From the IMG/VR virus record IMGVR_UViG_3300025131_000277, positions 1 through 29,745 of that record: 29,745 bases of DNA. The stretch is one strand, 5' to 3'. Below, in pieces: positions 18,421 to 29,745 of the stretch (positions are counted from its first letter, which is position 1; every line of letters begins with the position of its first letter). The DNA is from a virus. Made by a program: the position numbers and the translations under genes. The notes beneath the pieces are model-generated. The model had not been told where the DNA came from. It was given only the letters and a program-made list of their open reading frames with translations, and made no database searches.

Positions 18421-20963
18421 TGTCAGATCCAATTTGGGTAGATAGTCAATATAAATTTACTGACCCAGTAAGATATTTTAAAGCGAACGATCCTTATTAT
18501 TGGGAAGTTGATAATATCCCTCTGAAGCAGATACAAGAAAATGCTTTGTGGTTAAAAGACCAGGTAGCGCCAAAACAAGACCGGCGTGGGCAGCTAACAT
18601 CAGTTGATAGAAAAGATTTTAATGAGCTTAAGCCTTTTGTTACTGGAGGTAATCATAAGGTTAAGGTAAAGCCTGGAAGATTCACCGCGAGAATTAACGA
18701 TGTAGGGGCAGGAGGAAATAAAGAAGATTCCAATTGGGCTCATGCAGCAGCAGCAAATAGAGACGATTCTTCCAACGAATTAGCTTCAGTAATGTATACT
18801 GAAGAATTCCCATTAAAGTTTTGGTTAGATCAATATGAATGGGGAAATGCGACTGAGGCATTGCATGGTAGCGCGGGAAAAGACCCCTATGGTATAGCCA
18901 AATTTAAACAGTACTTGGTTGGTAATGTTCTTAACATGAATGGTCTGGTAGAAAGAGCTTTTACTTTTACTACCATGACCGAAGATTGGCTTCATCGTGA
19001 TACAAAAACCACTGAAGCTAGTTACAAAGGATTTGATTATTTTGGACATCCGTCAGTTGAACCTTTTCCTATAGCTGATGCTCTTCTGTGGGCAGTTAAT
19101 GATTCGGCATTTGGTTATGAACTTAGGGAAGCGAGGACACTTGATGGAAATGGTGGATTTCATGATTTACCTCGTTTAGAAAATCATTGGATTAAGTTTT
19201 GGAGAGGGGTGTTCCGCACAGCGGTAGTGGATGTTCCTAATGAAATTGAAATTGCAATTCCACCATTTGATCCTAACGATCACTTCTACTTCGCTAGTGG
19301 AGTAGATAAAACACATAATAACGCTAATCCAGAGAAAGATAAAACAATAGTAGATGCAGTAACCCAAAGAATTGATCTTCTTTTTGTTTATTCTAAATCT
19401 ATAGATTCGTCAGAAGCTGATATCGCTAAGTATAAAAATAAAACTAAAACTACAATCACTACACCAATGTTAGGAATTGTTAAGGGTGCTGGGATTGGAA
19501 TAGATTTTAGAAGTCTTGGAGTCAAGGGAAATGATCGCTCAGCGCAGCAAATGAATTATCCTGCAATTGATTCAGATGGGAATAGTTTGATTCTTGCAAA
19601 TCCATCTGACGAGCTTGATGCAAATAATGGATTTAAAAATACAAAAGTTAGTATTCACGGGTCATTCCCATCTCCAGACGATCTTATGAATATTTCTCCC
19701 TTAATTCATAAAGATCTTAATGAAACACATTATGCTACTATAGGACAAACTGTCCTTCCATTAGCTTATATTGTAGTTAAGAAAGGGGATGAAACTTTAG
19801 AAGATAAAGATATAATCGATATACGTCCGTTCTTCCGTACTACAGAGCTTGCTTATAATGAAAGAGCAGGTATTGCTGCTGCGTTCCCGCAGCTATCTTT
19901 TGCTAATCCTGCCGTGGGACAAGCTCAGGTCCAGTATGAGATTCTTAAGGTTAAGGATGATCATGATGCTGTAATGAAAGATCATGTGACTGGTATGCAT
20001 AAAGCTGAAGCGAATTCCCCTCGTATTGTAGCAACAGGTAGAGTTTGGGGAGGTCTGAAATGGGGTCCAGAAGCTTCCATAGAAAATTACTGGTATCATA
20101 AAAGAGGAAAAAGTAAAGACTATGCGGGAGCCCGCGAGGCGGCACATAAAGAGATAGGTGTGCCTAATGGAACTATACCCCAAAATCCTTCTTGGGATAA
20201 GTCTCGATGGGGGTCGGGTAATAATGTTAGAGGCCTCGGGAAGTACCCTAACGATTATATACAGACTATTTTGCGTTACGGAAGGCCAGCGAGATATACA
20301 ATGTGGGGTACAGCCTATGCCAATCCCACGGCTGCACAGGGGCCTCATCGCACTGGGCAATTTGGAACTGATTTTTTAGTGGGGGGTAGATACGTTAATT
20401 GCCATTTTGTTAAAAAAGTAATACAAATAGGAAATGTGCCTGATTGGGTAAAAGATTTTCAGGTTAATTGTAAATTTGAACATTGCCAACCACTTACCAA
20501 TAGAGTTTCGTCCATGCAGAACGATCAGGCGGCTGGGTCAGCTGGGATATCAGTTAGTAAAGATATGACTGGGGGACGAGATGGGGGGTGGCACTTTACA
20601 ATATACGCTCACTGGACAGGGGCAGATATCTTCCCGAATGCTTACAAGGCTGGTAGCGAAGGCGGTTCCGGTCATTTTACGGCCCGATACCAAAATCGTA
20701 ATTCCGCATCGAGAACTCCTTATTACTATAGAGCGCATTCAGAGCACTTTGCTGGATTTGTAGTTCAAACTAATAATATATTCTGGGAAAGCGGGGGACA
20801 TAATGGCCGCCATGGCGAGGAAGGGTTCCCTGGAGAGGGAGCTTGCGGGGTTGCACTTTACCCTACTGTGACATATGAGGTTATTGGGCTTCCTGATAAA
20901 ACTGAGTGGGCAGGACACAGGCAAAACCTTAAACACGGGACTAACTGGATTGATTTAGTGTAA
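18420..20963 (+). CDS. Structural protein sharing the N-terminal docking motif of its neighbour
   Basis: 847 residues, TAATG start. Residues 15-45 contain DPVRYFKANDPYYWEVDN followed by IPL and a Trp-containing helix. This aligns with residues 22-50 of the preceding beta-helix protein (both Y-x-W-E-x-D-N-x-P-L), suggesting the two attach to the same or equivalent virion sites. A central segment (about 445-505) reads LPLAYIVVKKGDE, DIIDIRPFF and RTTELAYNERAGIAAA, a strand-rich block I associate with virion proteins of T4-like marine phages, though this is memory rather than a search. The last 150 residues are rich in Gly, His and aromatics. No catalytic motif is evident. Most likely a baseplate- or fibre-associated virion protein. 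Confidence 0.6.
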   Translation: MSDPIWVDSQYKFTDPVRYFKANDPYYWEVDNIPLKQIQENALWLKDQVAPKQDRRGQLTSVDRKDFNELKPFVTGGNHKVKVKPGRFTARINDVGAGGNKEDSNWAHAAAANRDDSSNELASVMYTEEFPLKFWLDQYEWGNATEALHGSAGKDPYGIAKFKQYLVGNVLNMNGLVERAFTFTTMTEDWLHRDTKTTEASYKGFDYFGHPSVEPFPIADALLWAVNDSAFGYELREARTLDGNGGFHDLPRLENHWIKFWRGVFRTAVVDVPNEIEIAIPPFDPNDHFYFASGVDKTHNNANPEKDKTIVDAVTQRIDLLFVYSKSIDSSEADIAKYKNKTKTTITTPMLGIVKGAGIGIDFRSLGVKGNDRSAQQMNYPAIDSDGNSLILANPSDELDANNGFKNTKVSIHGSFPSPDDLMNISPLIHKDLNETHYATIGQTVLPLAYIVVKKGDETLEDKDIIDIRPFFRTTELAYNERAGIAAAFPQLSFANPAVGQAQVQYEILKVKDDHDAVMKDHVTGMHKAEANSPRIVATGRVWGGLKWGPEASIENYWYHKRGKSKDYAGAREAAHKEIGVPNGTIPQNPSWDKSRWGSGNNVRGLGKYPNDYIQTILRYGRPARYTMWGTAYANPTAAQGPHRTGQFGTDFLVGGRYVNCHFVKKVIQIGNVPDWVKDFQVNCKFEHCQPLTNRVSSMQNDQAAGSAGISVSKDMTGGRDGGWHFTIYAHWTGADIFPNAYKAGSEGGSGHFTARYQNRNSASRTPYYYRAHSEHFAGFVVQTNNIFWESGGHNGRHGEEGFPGEGACGVALYPTVTYEVIGLPDKTEWAGHRQNLKHGTNWIDLV

Positions 20964-23902
20964 TGGCATCCCCCAGATTCAACTGCGGGGAATTTAAGCC
21001 TGGAGAGCGAAGAATTAGATGGCCTCCACGAACCTCTAATCTCGGAGGTGGTGGTGGAGGTGGCAGTCGTTGCGGAAAAAGGGGAGGAGGTCCATGTATC
21101 GGAGGGCCACCCATTATAATACCACCATACACGGTAGAGTGGACTTGTGTTTGTGATAGTTTATGCGATTCTCAAACATATACAGCATGCGAAAACGCAT
21201 CTAGCAGAGAGTGTGTGAGAATTTGGGAGACTCAAGGCAGGAAGCACGGCAGAGTTTACAAGAGTGAAGCAGCTTGCAAGGCATCTGGATTTGGGGAGGC
21301 TCCTTGCTACATTTGTGGCTGGAAGTGCGTAACAGGAACAAAGGATTGCCCAAATTCGCCACCTGTTATTAGTAGAAAATGCGAAGAATGTTCTCCTAAA
21401 AAGTTTCAATTTGATTGCGCCTTTAAACATTTATCTGATTGTGTACAATCTCCATGTGAGGATGATGAGTGTGGGAGGGGAGGTCCTTCAGATCCTGGTT
21501 GGAGATGCGAGTACTCATCTGGAGGGGGAGTTCCTGAGTGCAAGAAATGTACAGGGTCTGAATCAGATTGTGCGTACGCTTCACTAGAATTGTGTAAAGA
21601 AGGTTGCAAGCCCCATAAATTTGCTTGTCTTACGCAATTTGAGTCAAAATGTATTGCCAGTAAAAAGGAAGCAGCAAAGAACCAAGGTTGCTATGAGTGT
21701 GATAGCAAGGGGGGACTCAGCAACGCAACCCAGAAACAATTTGTTTTGGATGTACAAAGTGCATACGCTTTTCATGGGTGTGATGAGAAGAATCCGGCAA
21801 CTTGCGACAACGGTACAACTGTAGCACTTGGATGGCCTGCTCAAATTACAGAGTCTTTAAAGGACGTTAATTGTCAGTATGACGATAGTGATTGTGATGG
21901 AAGATGCATAAATTATGATAATCCGTGTACGGGAAGCGCAAGAGGGGGTCCTGGATTTTCTTCCGCAATTAAAGGTAATTTTAGAAGCGTAAGAACAATT
22001 AATTTAGAGGTTGAAGCTGAGAAATCTAATGTTTCTACAAGTGGACTCTATCATGAAGATTTTAATATCTTCTCTCATGAGCCGAGGAATGAACTTAATC
22101 TCGTCGCAAATGATAAATATTTAGATATTTTCAATTCTGAGATTACTGAAGAAATTTATTATGTAATGGATGTCGTAGAACTAGCAGCTAGTGGATGGAA
22201 AGAATTCCCTTTTTATCAAGTTACCCAAGAAAGTTTGGAAGCTAGTATTCGTGTTGACGTACTAAGCCTTTTTGATTCATTCACTTCTATAGAGGGAGGA
22301 CAGATTGATAGAATCAATTTTCTTGGCATGATTTATAGATTATTAATGTCAGGCAGGCTAAATGAATTCGAGTTAGATTATTATAATGATTTAGCAAATA
22401 CGCAAAATAGAAATGAAAGTATAATTTATGAATACAATGAATCAAAAGATTTAGCACAAAGAGCAGCATTAGGTATTATAGTTGATGAAGCTTTATCTAT
22501 AGATCCTGCCCAACATGAGTATACGGATAATTTATTATTTAAAAGATTAAGATTTTTAAATGAAGATATAAATGCTGTTATACCAATAGATTTAGCGGCG
22601 ACTCCTACTAGTTCAATAGAGCTACAGAATGATGGCATAGGGATAATAGTCGATAATTCTGGGATAGCTGAAGTGGACAGTTCAGACAGGGTGGCAGTAC
22701 CTTTGGGGGAAGGGGGAGGATATTATTTTGAAATTACTAAAGACGATGGGACTAAAATTCCTCTGGAGACTAGTTCAGCAGTAAGTTCTACCTATTTTAT
22801 AGGGCGTAATACTAGAGAGGAAGTATTAGACTTATTTGAGGCAGAAAACGGATTTTTACTTTCAGTATCAGCTAAGGATGGGCAATCTGAGTTTGATACT
22901 AATTTTACCTCTTCTGTTACACATGTTAAACCGAGAGTTTTTAAACTCTCTTTATCATCTGTCGAAGATGAAGAAAGTGAGGACCCTTTAATTGCTAGAA
23001 CTTATGGGAGATATGAACTTCTCGCAGATGCAGATGTTGCAGCGTGGGTAAGGGATCATGGGGCATCAATAACTCAAGTTAATGTGGATTTTAGAGATCC
23101 ATTTTTTAATTATGCTATAGAATCAGAAAAAGTAGATATAAGATTAAATGATGTTTCTTTCAAATCCTTTGTATCTGATCCCACCAATTATACTTATGAC
23201 AGATTAGCCCGTAGTATACCATTTGGAATTATTTTAGTACCTGGACAAGGATCTAGGCATCTTCCTTTTGGAACTTTCTCGGAATTGAAAGATTTTGAGA
23301 CAGATGTAGTGCGAAGGTTGTCTGTATCTCCAAGTATATATGCCGAAGATACTGATGCCCAAACAATTCCGTTAGACATGAGCGCGGTGGGTGATCATCT
23401 AGGGGTTTACTATGTGGGTTTATTAGAAAAAGAAGATCCAAATACTGAAGCTGTTATGTTTACTTTTGATGATAGTAGTGAACTCTATAAAGATACCTAC
23501 TATATTGATGGTGTTTATAGCTCATCCCCTTCTGGTTCAATACCTAGGCCAGCAATGGGGCAGGTAGTTAGGTTAATAGAGGATACCCTCAAGGCTAGAT
23601 ATAATCTGAATGGCCTTACATGGTGGGATATATTTAGAAGACTAACAGCAGATCAAGTATCAAAATTATTTTTAGAAGGCACTGATGAATTTTATACTTC
23701 TTTGACGAAAGGAGATTGGAGAGGGGTTGCAATTAGAAATGTACTGAGTAAAGATCCCTCTGATGAGACTGGAATTTTGAGTGTTAAAGATGATAGTATC
23801 ACAGATACCATTGTATTAGAACAGAATCATAGAAGAAATCCTACCTCATTTCCTAACAACTATTCTTATATCACAGGACCCACAGGTGGAGGGGGATACT
23901 AA
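20963..23902 (+). CDS. Virion protein with a cysteine-rich N-terminal third
   Basis: 979 residues, TAATG start. There are 35 cysteines between residues 8 and 322 and none that I can find in the remaining ~657. The N-terminus begins with a Pro/Arg segment and seven consecutive Gly (about 29-35). Cys units then recur loosely: 'GWKC' and 'GWRC' starts, 'CEECS' and 'CKKCT' pairs, and 'CAYASLELCKEGC', a C-x-Y-x-S-x-x-x-C-x-x-x-C pattern of small disulfide-rich modules. The rest is unrelated: acidic, helical (about 370-530), then strand-rich segments, ending in TGPTGGGGY. A disulfide-stabilised adhesin displayed outside the virion is one reading and metal binding another. Neither is shown. The gene sits between fibre-like genes and the PAAR-like gene. 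Confidence 0.62.
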   Translation: MASPRFNCGEFKPGERRIRWPPRTSNLGGGGGGGSRCGKRGGGPCIGGPPIIIPPYTVEWTCVCDSLCDSQTYTACENASSRECVRIWETQGRKHGRVYKSEAACKASGFGEAPCYICGWKCVTGTKDCPNSPPVISRKCEECSPKKFQFDCAFKHLSDCVQSPCEDDECGRGGPSDPGWRCEYSSGGGVPECKKCTGSESDCAYASLELCKEGCKPHKFACLTQFESKCIASKKEAAKNQGCYECDSKGGLSNATQKQFVLDVQSAYAFHGCDEKNPATCDNGTTVALGWPAQITESLKDVNCQYDDSDCDGRCINYDNPCTGSARGGPGFSSAIKGNFRSVRTINLEVEAEKSNVSTSGLYHEDFNIFSHEPRNELNLVANDKYLDIFNSEITEEIYYVMDVVELAASGWKEFPFYQVTQESLEASIRVDVLSLFDSFTSIEGGQIDRINFLGMIYRLLMSGRLNEFELDYYNDLANTQNRNESIIYEYNESKDLAQRAALGIIVDEALSIDPAQHEYTDNLLFKRLRFLNEDINAVIPIDLAATPTSSIELQNDGIGIIVDNSGIAEVDSSDRVAVPLGEGGGYYFEITKDDGTKIPLETSSAVSSTYFIGRNTREEVLDLFEAENGFLLSVSAKDGQSEFDTNFTSSVTHVKPRVFKLSLSSVEDEESEDPLIARTYGRYELLADADVAAWVRDHGASITQVNVDFRDPFFNYAIESEKVDIRLNDVSFKSFVSDPTNYTYDRLARSIPFGIILVPGQGSRHLPFGTFSELKDFETDVVRRLSVSPSIYAEDTDAQTIPLDMSAVGDHLGVYYVGLLEKEDPNTEAVMFTFDDSSELYKDTYYIDGVYSSSPSGSIPRPAMGQVVRLIEDTLKARYNLNGLTWWDIFRRLTADQVSKLFLEGTDEFYTSLTKGDWRGVAIRNVLSKDPSDETGILSVKDDSITDTIVLEQNHRRNPTSFPNNYSYITGPTGGGGY

Positions 23903-24969: not shown

Positions 24970-25305
24970 ATGAATCACGTAAATATTCACGAAGATATTG
25001 TTAGCGAGCTAGTGACAGGCTGTTCTTGGGGAAAGCTGGGTTACAAGCCTGAGGTAGAGAAGATCGACGAGGCCAAGCAATCCAAGAACAATGAGCCAAC
25101 CGAAGAGGTTATTGAGGAAGCTCATGTTTGTCCGCTTTGCGAGTCCGAGTTGGCAGAGGATATCTCTGACGATAAGCTTTCTGAGCACATTCAAATGGTT
25201 CTTGGAATGACCCAACATATATTTGAGAGCTTAGAAGGGGAAGAGGGCCTAGATCCTATCGATGAACAAGATGATGAAGATGAAGCTATAGCTTCGGAAG
25301 GATGA
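24970..25305 (+). CDS. Small acidic protein with CxxC/His motif, first gene of head operon
   Basis: 111 residues, very acidic, especially in the last 25 (runs of Asp and Glu). Residues 52-83 contain HVCPLCESE followed by His73 and His83, a C-x2-C-x15-H-x9-H spacing that could bind zinc, although it is looser than a classical C2H2 finger. It is preceded by a good Shine-Dalgarno and the leader described at 24887-24969. In T4 a small acidic core protein (gp67) is encoded upstream of the protease and scaffold, so a prohead-core role is possible from size, charge and position. No sequence similarity to gp67 is visible. I do not recognise the family. Confidence 0.55.
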   Translation: MNHVNIHEDIVSELVTGCSWGKLGYKPEVEKIDEAKQSKNNEPTEEVIEEAHVCPLCESELAEDISDDKLSEHIQMVLGMTQHIFESLEGEEGLDPIDEQDDEDEAIASEG

Positions 25306-25312
25306 GACCCTC

Positions 25313-26032
25313 ATGTCTAGACTTCCGAATATTTCTGTAGCCGACTTCGCGGAAAATCTGTTGGAGGGGACTATGAGTGATATTGCCACGGGCAACGCTC
25401 CTATTCCTGATATCAATAATTCTTCCCCTAGCCCTCAACATATGGCTCCTGACGTATCTAAGTTAGAAGTTCCAGCGTCTATGATAGAATCTATCACTGG
25501 AAGGCCTGTAGCTAAGGCTGAAGTTCCGATTAATTCTGATCTCGTTTCTGATCAGAGGGATGATATCAAGGATTTACTGGTGGAAGCGAAGACCGTTGTG
25601 TCAAAGCTTAAGAGTCTACTGGGTGAAGACACCTCTCCAGGGGCCACCCAGGCTGGACATCTCGGAACAGGCCCTCTAGCAAAGGCCAGGGCTGCTATGC
25701 ATGCCAAGAGATACCCCGATGACAGGACATACGATGATATCATGAGAGGTAGAGGTTATAGCACAGATATTCTCCCAGCTGAGACTCCTGGCACTGAAAC
25801 CCCTAAAGTTACCATTCCGTATAAAACGAAGGGGAAGACTCTTGAAAACAGATTAGAGACTGCTATTAAAAGATTTTTATCTGAAAGAACAAAATCGAGT
25901 AGTGTCATGAGAATGGCAGGACTTGTGCGAGATGTGCCTAGACACTATCCAGCAGGTGCAGGGGGAGAGCCAGATCCAGATCCAGGTGTGGATAAATCCG
26001 ATCAAAGAGCTAGAAAGCCAAAGAGAAAATAA
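25313..26032 (+). CDS. Head protein carrying a copy of the capsid N-arm motif
   Basis: 239 residues. AAGGA lies about ten bases upstream of ATG 25313. The N-terminal 80 residues look flexible (Pro, Ser, Asn). Residues 83-103 are probably helical (DDIKDLLVEAKTVVSKLKSLL), followed by LGE, a possible prohead-protease site, and then PGATQAGHLGT at 109-119, which matches residues 54-64 of the major capsid protein at 10 of 11 positions. After this comes a basic helix (AKARAAMHAKRYPDD), a second helix (ENRLETAIKRFLSERT, near 180-195) and a basic tail ending RARKPKRK. Position before protease, scaffold and capsid genes points to a head-assembly or internal protein. The family is not recognised. Confidence 0.6.
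   Translation: MSRLPNISVADFAENLLEGTMSDIATGNAPIPDINNSSPSPQHMAPDVSKLEVPASMIESITGRPVAKAEVPINSDLVSDQRDDIKDLLVEAKTVVSKLKSLLGEDTSPGATQAGHLGTGPLAKARAAMHAKRYPDDRTYDDIMRGRGYSTDILPAETPGTETPKVTIPYKTKGKTLENRLETAIKRFLSERTKSSSVMRMAGLVRDVPRHYPAGAGGEPDPDPGVDKSDQRARKPKRK
25637..25669 (+). other. PGATQAGHLGT segment, copy 1 (239-residue head protein)
   Basis: Encodes residues 109-119 of the 239-residue protein. It differs from the capsid copy only by Ala for Val at the sixth position. Nine of the ten identical residues use a different codon from the capsid gene, only His being encoded identically (CAT). A possible LxE cleavage motif (LGE, 103-105) lies three residues upstream. Confidence 0.75.
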
Positions 26033-26037
26033 CCAGT

Positions 26038-26433
26038 ATGGCAGATATCGTAGAATTTATAAATGAATCAAAAGCTGAGAAAGGCAAAGGTTCAAAAGCA
26101 GGAAGGGCCAAGATGCGCTCAGGCAAAGAGCATGTAGAGTCTTCGAAGTCTAGAGTTAAAGTTTATAAGTCTATTATGGATGCTTTAAGAAAAAGCTACA
26201 TTGGTCAACCCTGGTCAACAAAAAATTCTAAACGCCAATATGTTACGACCGTAGATTCTCATGGGGGCACAAGTAAAGAACAAAAGGTGGGAAATAGAAT
26301 TGCTAAAGGTTTTACTGGTGGGAGTTTTAAAGACGTAAAGGATTTTGCGGTTAGAACTTTAACAAGACACGGCAAAAGAAGAGAGAAAAAGTTTGAAGGA
26401 TCCAAATACTGGAAGAGCAGGAAAAAGAAATGA
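26038..26433 (+). CDS. Small, highly basic head protein (candidate internal/core protein)
   Basis: 131 residues with abundant Lys and Arg and a C-terminal tail ending KSRKKK. The N-terminus reads MADIVEFINES: I-N-E at residues 8-10 fits the (L/I)-x-E site after which T4-type prohead protease cuts, so a short N-terminal peptide may be removed during maturation. Size, charge and position just before the protease gene resemble T4 core or internal proteins (gp68, IPs) by analogy only. Packaging with DNA is a reasonable inference. Its stop overlaps the protease start as ATGA (26430-26433). No known domain is recognised. Confidence 0.6.
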   Translation: MADIVEFINESKAEKGKGSKAGRAKMRSGKEHVESSKSRVKVYKSIMDALRKSYIGQPWSTKNSKRQYVTTVDSHGGTSKEQKVGNRIAKGFTGGSFKDVKDFAVRTLTRHGKRREKKFEGSKYWKSRKKK

Positions 26434-27719
26434 TGCACATAATTCAAGACGTTTTTATTCTTAATAATCTCCGTGTCCTGAATGAAGGTCGCGGTGGAAC
26501 TAAAATGATTATTGAGGGCTGCTTTCAAAGGGCAGACGAGATTAATAACAATAAAAGGACATACCCACAAAAGATTCTTGCTGAATCAGTAAAAAATCTC
26601 CAGGGTTCTATCAATGAAAGAATGCTCGTTGGAGAAATTGATCATCCTGAGTATGAGACCGTAAAACTCTCCAAGGCTTCTCACTTAATCACTGGTTTGA
26701 GGATGGAAGGAAAGGAAGTAGTTGGAAGAGCCGAAATTTTGTCTACCCCAGCAGGGTCTGTTGTCAAAAGTCTTATTAACGATGGTGTTAAAATTGGTAT
26801 TTCTAGTAGGGGTGTTGGGACTTTGTCTGAAAACTCTGATGGGACGAAGACCGTAAATGAAGATTATAAATGTCTAACTTATGATATCGTTGCAGATCCT
26901 TCGACTAGAGGAGCGTTCCCAGGTTTGTCTGAGTCCACGAAGGTTCAAGGTATTGTTGAATCCACAATGAAGAAGACTCTAGGTGAGAAGATCTTTGTTC
27001 AAATGCTTAAGTCTAAGTTGAATGAGGGAAAAAGGGCTACGGCTGCTAAAGATGAGGATGTAAAGGAAAGTTTTTATGAGAGAGTAGCCTTTTTAAATGA
27101 GGTAGGTAGAGCTTTAACTCATGACGAGGCAGGAGTATATTCTGGAGGAGCGCGGCGTACAGGGGGACCAAGTGCTGCACAGCGCCGTCACGGTGAAAAG
27201 TCGAGCGGGGCGGCTAAAAAGCGCAAAGAAGCACAAGCAGCAGCTGCTGACGTAATAAATAAAAGAAATGCAGAAAAACCCCCAAGACAAGACACTTCCA
27301 TTGATATGGAATTTATTGTTAGAGGATTACAGAATCTGAGTGAAGACGATAATCTTGATGAAGGTTTAAAAGATATTGCCAAAGCAGTTGGTAGTAAAAT
27401 TGTAGGTGGTGTTAAAACAGCAGGTAATGTTGCTAAAAAGGCTGTTCTTCCCCTTGCGGTAGTGGGTGGTACAGGTCTTGGTACTTATTTAAACACCAGA
27501 GGCAAAACGGATCTTATGCAGAAAATGAGATCGCAACCTGTGGCAACATCCACTGGGGTACAAGGTCCTCACGCAAAAAAGAATGGATCTAATGCTGCGG
27601 GAGCTTCAACAAGTACACGGCCAGAGGTGGGTCCTCCCACGAGAGGGCAGTTAAAACGAGAGGTAACTGACCAAGCCACAGATATTAAAAGGGGTTTAGA
27701 AAATCCCAGGCGAAAGTAG
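26430..27719 (+). CDS. 21: Prohead core protease, gp21 family, with long C-terminal tail
   Basis: 429 residues starting in an ATGA overlap (a second ATG follows at 26433). The protease domain spans about 1-175: 'IIEGCFQRADEINNNKRTYP', 'GEIDHPE' with catalytic His72, and 'GVKIGISSRGVGTL' with the catalytic Ser at 125 or 126, then 'YDIVADPS' with Asp152/156 as candidate third residues. These are the landmarks of the gp21 serine-protease family, which digests the scaffold and trims head proteins. T4 gp21 is about 212 residues, so some 220 are extra. The tail contains LNE at 197-199 and 222-224, LSE 303-305 and LDE 309-311, which may be self-cleavage sites, and an Ala/Gly/Val-rich hydrophobic segment (about 338-354). 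It may act as scaffold or anchor before removal. That is inference. Confidence 0.88.
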   Translation: MMHIIQDVFILNNLRVLNEGRGGTKMIIEGCFQRADEINNNKRTYPQKILAESVKNLQGSINERMLVGEIDHPEYETVKLSKASHLITGLRMEGKEVVGRAEILSTPAGSVVKSLINDGVKIGISSRGVGTLSENSDGTKTVNEDYKCLTYDIVADPSTRGAFPGLSESTKVQGIVESTMKKTLGEKIFVQMLKSKLNEGKRATAAKDEDVKESFYERVAFLNEVGRALTHDEAGVYSGGARRTGGPSAAQRRHGEKSSGAAKKRKEAQAAAADVINKRNAEKPPRQDTSIDMEFIVRGLQNLSEDDNLDEGLKDIAKAVGSKIVGGVKTAGNVAKKAVLPLAVVGGTGLGTYLNTRGKTDLMQKMRSQPVATSTGVQGPHAKKNGSNAAGASTSTRPEVGPPTRGQLKREVTDQATDIKRGLENPRRK

Positions 27720-27787
27720 AATACATAAAGTAGAAAAAAGTAAATCTTTTTAAAAATTGTAATAAATAATAATGATAGGATAATTCT
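27720..27787 (+). other. AT-rich spacer between protease and scaffold genes
   Basis: Sixty-eight very AT-rich bases. AATAAATA at 27761-27768 differs from the late-promoter box by one base and could be a weak late promoter for scaffold and capsid genes, as T4 has promoters serving gene 23. AAAAAG and CTTTTT (27735-27751) can form a 6-bp hairpin, but it lacks G:C pairs, so it is not a credible terminator. A Shine-Dalgarno AGGA (27777-27780) precedes ATG 27788. Confidence 0.3.
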
Positions 27788-28435
27788 ATGGAACAAATGA
27801 ATGATATAGCGCAACTGCTACCAGAGGGTCTTTCGGACGATGCGGTCAATGAGATCGCCAAGTTGGTAGATCAAACAATCTCGGAGCAAGTTGAGCAAGC
27901 AGTTAAGAATCTAGAATCTCAGGTAGTTGCTTTTGTCAGAACCAATGTTGAGGAACTGAAAGAGCAAGCTATTCGTGAGTTGGAACTTGAAAATGATACC
28001 TTCAGGAACGCGCAGCTGTTTGAGTCTATGAAGTCTCTTATGGCAGTGGAATTGAAGGATGAAGATGAGGCTATTGCTCTCACTTCTATAGTTTGTGAAA
28101 ATAAGAATCTGGAGGAAGAATCACATTTTCTTACCTCTGAGATTGATAAGTATATGAAAGAGACCACGCGGCTTGAATCAATTATTGAAGCTCAATCTGG
28201 CAAGATAGATAAGCTTGCTAATAGGGAGCAAAAAGTACTTGAACAGGCCAATGCGTTGAAGGAAGCTACACAACGCTTGGAAGAAAGTGGCCCGAAGCCC
28301 TTTAAGTCTTCTGAACAAGCTCAATTAGTTTCCGAAAACCGTGATGAGAGAAATCAAGTCGCAAATCAAAGAACTGTGCTAAATGAGTTCTTAAGCGAGG
28401 CGGCTATGAATTTGATGCCGACTTCAAAAAAGTAA
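27788..28435 (+). CDS. 22: Prohead scaffolding core protein, gp22-like
   Basis: 215 residues, almost entirely Glu, Gln, Lys and Leu-rich helix with heptad-like hydrophobics from about 15 to 170, as expected for a scaffold that forms the prohead core. Position directly between the gp21-like protease and gp23-like capsid genes matches T4 gene 22. The C-terminus carries LNE at 198-200 and LSE at 202-204 followed by AA, two candidate protease sites of the (L/I)-x-E type. T4 gp22 is about 270 residues and is degraded to peptides during maturation. Assignment rests on gene order and composition rather than strong residue motifs. The capsid start codon follows nine bases after the stop, with AAGGA in the gap. 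Confidence 0.78.
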   Translation: MEQMNDIAQLLPEGLSDDAVNEIAKLVDQTISEQVEQAVKNLESQVVAFVRTNVEELKEQAIRELELENDTFRNAQLFESMKSLMAVELKDEDEAIALTSIVCENKNLEEESHFLTSEIDKYMKETTRLESIIEAQSGKIDKLANREQKVLEQANALKEATQRLEESGPKPFKSSEQAQLVSENRDERNQVANQRTVLNEFLSEAAMNLMPTSKK

Positions 28436-28444
28436 GGAAATGTT

Positions 28445-29745
28445 ATGAGAGATAATATAGGTGGTTCAGTTGAACTAGTTCAAAAGTGGAGCCCAGTTCT
28501 TGATGGTATTGAAGATGATTATACCAGACGAGTTACGGCTACACTCATGGAAAACCAGGCGAAGGCCATTTTAGCTGAGAGGCTAAATGAAGAGGCCCTC
28601 ACTCCTGGAGCTACTCAAGTCGGTCATTTGGGTACGTTTCAGAAGTTTGCCTTTCCGCTCGTCCGTAGGGTATACCCCGAACTGATTGCTAACAAGATTG
28701 TTGGTGTTCAGCCGATGAGTGGTCCGGTTTCACAAATCTTCTACCTTGGTCATTCCCGTGGTGGTAAGAATATGTCAGATCTCTGGGAGCAGCAAACTGT
28801 CTATAGTAAGTATAATCTTACTTATCGTGGTCTTGCTGCTAGTGCCATTGGTTCTCAGGCGACCACACTAGGTGGTGCTGCGGCACAGCATACAAATGTT
28901 GTTGGTACGTGGGCTGATAACACTACGCAAGCTAGTGGTCTTACTGGTGCGGAAGCCGTTGCAGGTTTTGACCTTTCCAACGTCTTGGAAGTTTCTACAG
29001 GATTCGCTGGTGCGGCAAGCTCTACCTATGGTGGTAAGATTGCTTCGTTCCCTGACGCGAGAACAACTCTTGGTTGGGCTGTGAGTTCTGGTGAGAATCT
29101 TAGGACTTCTGGTATTCCAGAGTTGACCTTCCATATCCAACAGCAGCCAGTGGTTGCGAGAACACGTAAGATGCGTGCTCTCTGGACTATTGAGGCTTCT
29201 CAGGATCTGAAGGCTTATCACAATCTCGACCTTGAAAGGGAATTGACTGAGCTTCTGAGTAAGGAGATTCAGTTGGAGATCGACCGCGAGCTTATCGAAG
29301 ATCTGCGTATGGTCGCTTATGGAGTTCATAATTCTGCTGGTTACGCTGGTTGGGATATTGATTCCCTAGACAACGCTAATGCAAATAATTTCCAAGATAT
29401 TGGTGGCAACAGCCCCAATGCCTTTGGAACAGGGTTTGCTCCTTCTGCTTGGACTTATGCTCAGGGCGATGGGAACGGTCCTGATGGTTCGGTTAATGAT
29501 AATCTGAGGAATGAAACAAATGCTTTCGGAGCAAATGTTTTTGTTCATGATTTTACTGACGGTAATCCTAGTTTTGATCCTCGTCATATCGGTGATACAT
29601 GGGCTAACTTGCTAGGTGTTATTAACCTTGCAAGCCAGGACATTTATCGTACGACACACAGAGGCCCAGGTACGGTTCTAGTAACCTCACCGCTGATTGC
29701 TACAATGCTTGAGACTACTTCCAAGATGGAAGGTGGTATGGCTCC
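28445..29745 (+). CDS. 23: Major capsid protein, gp23 family (3' end outside window)
   Basis: 433 residues are visible and the frame is open at the window end. Start ATG 28445 follows AAGGA. Residues 65-101 contain the gp23 core pattern 'FAFPLVRRVYPELIAN' and 'IVGVQPMSGPVSQIFYL'. Residues 224-295 contain 'VVARTRKMRALWTIEASQDL', 'NLDLERELTELLSKEI' and 'IDREL', matching the family's HK97-fold segments. It forms the hexamers of the head. In T4 the first 65 residues are removed by gp21. Here an equivalent cut is plausible at LNE (47-49) or after Glu50, leaving a new N-terminus just before PGATQVGHLGT (54-64). Arg codons include many CGT, unlike the AGA/AGG preference of the tail genes, which fits high expression. 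Confidence 0.95.
   Translation, partial: MRDNIGGSVELVQKWSPVLDGIEDDYTRRVTATLMENQAKAILAERLNEEALTPGATQVGHLGTFQKFAFPLVRRVYPELIANKIVGVQPMSGPVSQIFYLGHSRGGKNMSDLWEQQTVYSKYNLTYRGLAASAIGSQATTLGGAAAQHTNVVGTWADNTTQASGLTGAEAVAGFDLSNVLEVSTGFAGAASSTYGGKIASFPDARTTLGWAVSSGENLRTSGIPELTFHIQQQPVVARTRKMRALWTIEASQDLKAYHNLDLERELTELLSKEIQLEIDRELIEDLRMVAYGVHNSAGYAGWDIDSLDNANANNFQDIGGNSPNAFGTGFAPSAWTYAQGDGNGPDGSVNDNLRNETNAFGANVFVHDFTDGNPSFDPRHIGDTWANLLGVINLASQDIYRTTHRGPGTVLVTSPLIATMLETTSKMEGGMA
28604..28636 (+). other. PGATQVGHLGT segment, copy 2 (major capsid N-arm)
   Basis: Encodes residues 54-64 of the major capsid protein, immediately after the presumed maturation cleavage region (LNE-E-A) and before the conserved FPLVRR block. 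It is the counterpart of the segment at 25637-25669 in the 239-residue head protein. Confidence 0.75.

Follow-up and report, generated by a model that had tools for sequence, protein, structure and literature searches.

A putative prohead-core protein of uncultured T4-like phages carries a segment that evolves in concert with the capsid N-arm

In phage T4, the arm region of the capsid is disordered inside the prohead, moves outward on expansion and then contacts neighbouring subunits (PMC9958956), and residues 66-91 of gp23* constitute the N-fist (PMC7136217). Short signals shared between head proteins have been described in two related settings. The CTS of T4 is a shared signal lying in the part that cleavage takes away (PMC9026906), and the scaffolding protein SP of phage 80alpha and the CpmB protein of SaPI1 carry one short motif in common, competing for one capsid site (PMC5644958). 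How the core is joined to the shell in T4-type proheads, and what role the disordered capsid arms play before expansion, is poorly known. Here we describe a small unnamed protein, encoded beside the capsid-maturation protease in uncultured T4-like aquatic phages, that copies the capsid arm. A text search of open papers for a phage core protein mimicking this arm returned none, which is weak evidence of novelty.

Head gene cluster and the ORF239 family

The window, as we term the whole stretch of 29,745 nucleotides analysed (IMG/VR record IMGVR_UViG_3300025131_000277), comprises part of the record of an uncultured virus; judging by its open reading frames, it appears to carry T4-type baseplate and tail genes, and its clade resembles the Far-T4 phages of the literature (PMC4360716). 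These are followed by a PAAR protein and then by ORF111, ORF239, ORF131, gp21, a gp22-like coiled-coil protein and gp23 (Table 1). The capsid ORF matches PF07068 (Gp23; E=3.9e-50, 171.8 bits against a cutoff of 24.4 bits) and PHROG 138 (E=1e-56). Its full length was taken from locus L003, and identity to the capsid proteins of the best-placed sequenced phages does not exceed about 34%. By position counted from the alignment, its GHLG aligns with G86-T89 of T4 gp23, and the capsid motif with the stretch where the gp23* N-fist ends and the N-arm begins.

Table 1. Coordinates of head-cluster features in the window.
Feature	Coordinates	Strand	Evidence
Acidic 111-aa ORF (ORF111), net charge -26, gp67-like by charge and position alone	24970..25305	+	ORF, charge
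ORF239, putative arm-mimic protein, 239 aa	25313..26032	+	ORF; 77 distinct syntenic homologues
Predicted helix, ORF239 residues 77-105, ending at LGE	25541..25627	+	AlphaFold2, pLDDT ~80-90 for residues 81-100
Candidate gp21 cleavage site LGE, ORF239 residues 103-105	25619..25627	+	sequence
ORF239 C-terminal part, residues 106-239 (motif and basic tail), net charge +9	25628..26029	+	charge count
Arm-mimic motif PGATQAGHLGT, ORF239 residues 109-119, predicted disordered	25637..25669	+	pLDDT ~51-54
Basic 131-aa ORF (ORF131), net charge +23, conserved neighbour of ORF239	26038..26433	+	ORF, charge
gp21-like prohead protease (peptidase S77), long C-terminal extension	26430..27719	+	PF03420 E=1.3e-24, PHROG 207 E=7e-49
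gp22-like scaffold by position and coiled-coil character, lacking the motif	27788..28435	+	ORF
gp23-like major capsid protein, 433 of 561 aa, ORF cut by window end	28445..29743	+	PF07068, PHROG 138
Candidate gp21 site LNE/E, capsid residues 47-50, end of predicted helix 25-51	28583..28594	+	sequence; poor model
Capsid N-arm motif PGATQVGHLGT, residues 54-64	28604..28636	+	sequence, alignment

Additional features were observed within this region and in related loci. ORF111 contains a CPLC pair with weak similarity to Pfam models of zinc hooks and zinc fingers, scoring under the cutoffs of these models. The C-terminal extension of the gp21-like protease spans about 220 residues and is rich in K, A and G; in locus L005 the gp21-like frame stops after 210 aa and is followed by a separate basic ORF. 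Further upstream, a 979-aa ORF (20963-23902) has an N-terminal third that is first Gly-rich and then Cys-rich.

The preliminary description had reported an 11-residue segment common to ORF239 and the capsid protein, preceded in each by a candidate protease site. Its coordinates, reading frames and residue numbers proved correct, as did the placement of both sites: P109-T119 of ORF239 and P54-T64 of the capsid protein are identical at 10 of 11 positions, and each segment occurs a single time in its protein. The chance expectation for a match of at least 10 of 11 is 8e-7 for these two proteins, given the composition of both, rising to 3e-4 when every pair among the 18 window proteins is considered. 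The pair represents the best 11-mer match in the window, where the runner-up (8 of 11) lies between acidic stretches, and 60 shuffles of all window proteins never produced a match above 9 of 11.

Direct searches with the 239-aa protein returned no homologue, and no match was found in PHROGs, Pfam, PDB sequences or 50,697 phage records; homologues were reached only via synteny with gp21 and gp23, and in the same databases these produced no match beyond isolated weak single-member hits. Two counts of capsid relatives in the collection came to 521 and 480. About 150 IMG/VR loci were collected through capsid and protease alignments, and iterating a profile from which capsid proteins were left out defined 103 syntenic members, 77 of them distinct and with a mean identity within the family of 23%. 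All originate from uncultured T4-like phages and are encoded just upstream of gp21-gp22-gp23, with one basic ORF separating ORF239 from gp21 in the window. The profile identified exactly one family member in each of 14 long contigs, and its only other matches, in four of them, were to frames of 540-567 aa located where the capsid protein is encoded, aligned at the motif (E 1.5e-5 to 4e-3). The motif is present in no third protein. The family HMM detects capsid proteins through the motif segment, and profile-profile comparison of the family with the capsid proteins aligned 18 columns, comprising the motif only (hhalign, E=5e-5). This restricted alignment, together with a helical and disordered structural model, led us to reject ORF239 as an HK97-fold capsid paralogue. 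ORF239 is here the founder of a new protein family in the head gene cluster.

Within this family, T112, G115 and G118 of the motif are three of the six most conserved columns. The proposed sharing of a motif extends to the family as a whole, but the 11-residue identity is particular to this genome, and the family-wide element is the shorter T-T-x-G-X-[LI]-G. This pattern is fitted by 58 of the 77 family members, here called core proteins after their proposed location; about a quarter are degenerate, with whole clades decayed.

Homologues of ORF239 present a common layout, encompassing an acidic helical N-terminal part, an [LI]xE site, the T-T-x-G-X-[LI]-G segment and a basic tail. The same-genome capsid protein presents a helix, [LI]xE and the same segment in the same order. 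The part up to the motif is acidic (median net charge -7 in homologues, and -7 for the N-terminal part of ORF239), and the tail behind it is net positive in all 71 homologues analysed (median +8). In 70 of 71 core homologues an [LI]xE lies no more than 25 aa ahead of the motif, compared with 65% of background windows, and such a site precedes the motif in 71 of 71 capsid proteins, at spacings of 1 to 15 and 0 to 18 residues, respectively. AlphaFold2 confidently predicted the ORF239 helix that ends at LGE, followed by a disordered motif; the capsid model was poor (mean pLDDT 49), with a helix ending at LNEE and the motif following as coil. Since the predicted helices of both proteins end at [LI]xE, both may be described as helix, [LI]xE and arm motif, and these sites constitute candidate gp21 cleavage sites in both proteins.

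Several homologues depart from this layout or show further peculiarities. A C-terminal extra module (NPWAxCHSSTG..KFERCVxxVK) is present in L081:5572-6105, L097:7077-7586, L025:333-920 and L079:514-996 and absent from others, a distribution that looks like that of a small C-terminal domain added or lost. In L208:396-1457 the homologue sits inside an open frame of 354 residues, and long additional stretches flank the motif on both sides. In L278 the core segment reads TTVGGIGTSQKFNLL and the capsid arm TTVGKLGTFQKFAF, the match reaching into an otherwise capsid-only QKF stretch. Finally, L212 (QCKN01000003.1, 130.6 kb) is a contig of this clade within the single-cell genome of Prochlorococcus sp. 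AG-409-P03, which hints at a host or at co-sorting; in this contig, arm and core form an R/R match, as in L162.

Concerted evolution of the core and capsid segments

The core and capsid segments evolve in concert, though incompletely. In a 10-position alignment, same-genome segments share 5.40 identities, versus 4.38 for foreign pairs, an excess never reached in 10,000 permutations. Common descent was allowed for by simulating core states along the capsid tree (5,000 simulations). At position X of T-T-x-G-X-[LI]-G, 32 of 71 genomes match, against 7.4 +- 4.3 in the simulations, the best of which attained 29 (p=0.0002), and flanking positions 0, 4 and 5 yielded p=0.011, 0.005 and 0.019, all p-values being per single column with seven columns tested. 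Enlarging the set with the loci of a further scan, which does not amount to an independent replicate, gave 36 matches in 76 genomes versus 8.7 +- 4.8 simulated (p=0.0003). Among these is a new co-switch in L239, with GNLG in the capsid protein and GNIG in the core protein, where the nearest relatives have Q, A or S at the capsid X.

Disjoint genome pairs differing at X in both proteins provide similar evidence. The own combination was better in 27 pairs and the swapped combination in one, although the corresponding sign test (2e-7) overstates significance because deeper pairs share branches; at distances below 1.1 the ratio is still about 14 to 1. The concert is broken in capsid proteins with K (10-11 genomes) or A at X, which the core protein never matches, and the prediction that every capsid GHLG arm pairs with a core GHLG fails in the new lineage L208, where the core reads GSIG. 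Overall, own pairs are closer than foreign ones and X tracks the capsid arm. The comparison of homologues that the preliminary description had proposed revealed covariation, and the outcome it had named as refuting, a motif that is not conserved or that varies independently of the capsid arm, was not observed.

Candidate partners of the two segments

The coordinated change of the two copies suggests that both grip the same partner during head building, and for a second protein that tracks the arm segment at each residue, the simplest reading is that it binds the partner of the arm. We consider the shell site at which the arm itself docks a more probable partner than the protease. Under this proposal, which we regard as evenly balanced between right and wrong, ORF239 would be a prohead-core protein whose copy of the capsid N-arm docks at the arm's site and is released by gp21. 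The acidic helical N-terminal part of ORF239 is probably located in the scaffold core, and the arm copy would dock where the capsid protein's arm docks, most likely at the inner surface of the shell, tying the core to the shell or keeping the docking site occupied. Cleavage by gp21 at [LI]xE would hit both proteins at an equivalent point, freeing the arms, and the resulting ORF239 fragment would consist of the arm motif and a basic tail of DNA-binding type.

The specificity of the resemblance was assessed by scanning all ORFs of eight long contigs with a capsid-arm matrix. The core protein was the top non-capsid ORF in five of them (G001, G003, G004, G011 and G013) and has a weaker motif in the other three; gp22 and gp21 were absent from the top six hits in these contigs. 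In a covariation scan against gp21, gp22 and gp23, with the arm itself removed, the core X ranked third among the partners of the arm X and was the best partner outside gp23, with scores near noise throughout, and the scan did not discriminate between shell and protease.

The location of both copies at [LI]xE sites makes the protease the main rival. The gp21 protease could recognise T-T-x-G-X-[LI]-G downstream of [LI]xE as a docking signal shared by two key substrates, as would befit copies placed just behind this site in nearly all core proteins and in every capsid protein. T4 gp24, which loses its first 10 residues by cleavage (PMC9958956), likewise has S-T-T-T-N-S-N-S-I-G directly after its LRE site. 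The other expected substrates in the eight long contigs, gp22 and the gp21 tail, nevertheless lack the motif, and its distance from [LI]xE is loose in both proteins, which disfavours a general protease signal and makes this explanation unlikely, if a serious one. It is improbable that both segments instead bind another prohead component that reads the arm, such as the portal, the gp22 scaffold or a folding chaperone. Any common partner would yield concerted change, the N-fists of portal-facing gp23 subunits are disordered in T4 (PMC7136217) and certain columns of gp22 follow the arm no less closely than the core motif does, but these signals from gp22 do not rise above noise.

Gene conversion or recent duplication could also keep the segments alike, and own pairs are indeed more similar than foreign pairs. 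The preliminary description had pointed to selection on the peptide from the codons of the window, where nine of the ten identical residues are encoded differently and only His shares its codon (CAT in both), and this argument was borne out across the family: of 388 identical residues, 138 share a codon, against 143.1 +- 9.4 predicted from own-genome codon usage. Since identical residues share codons no more often than expected from codon usage, a recent event is ruled out, and the mechanism as a whole is very improbable; the variant left by the codon data is a very old conversion followed by synonymous saturation. Coincidence between disordered segments rich in T, G, A and S is scarcely credible, for while both are of simple composition and several cores are degenerate, the pair chance of 8e-7, the simulation result at X and the hits in unbiased scans all speak against it.

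A naturally coevolving arm copy in a second protein names a specific, testable contact of 7-10 residues in a large aquatic phage group, and it would assign a function to an unannotated gene family that nearly all examined members of the group possess. More tentatively, ORF239 might exemplify a new kind of assembly factor, in which a core protein occupies the shell's docking site for the N-arm by means of its coevolving arm copy, a single cut by the protease releases both arms and sets the time of shell maturation, and a shell-anchored basic peptide stays inside the head.

Comparison with known systems

The capsid copy corresponds to the homologous arm region of the T4 gp23/gp24 N-arm and N-fist, which in T4 is known only within shell proteins. 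A stretch near the N-terminus of T4 gp24 (L163:8324-9607), LLRE-STTTNSNSIG, resembles the capsid arm motif of this clade. In gene position, between gp20/tail genes and gp21-gp22-gp23, ORF239 is reminiscent of T4 gp67/gp68, and it shares with gp68 an acidic and then basic composition. The QTTG of gp68, however, stays fixed while the capsid arm changes, and homology between ORF239 and gp68 was rejected after hhalign of the family against a gp68 alignment returned a probability of 0.2% (E=0.27).

The CTS-bearing internal proteins of T4 are likewise core proteins with a short shared signal beside a gp21 site. Their signal precedes the cleavage site, is removed and is common to the IPs, whereas the ORF239 motif follows the site, approximately 110-120 aa into the protein, and is common to the capsid protein; it is hence not a CTS. 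By analogy, the nearest precedent for the proposed mechanism appears to be the 80alpha scaffold and SaPI1 CpmB, in which two proteins present one short motif (RIIK) to one capsid-protein site. In that pair scaffold copies scaffold, whereas ORF239, a non-shell protein, would copy the shell protein's own arm.
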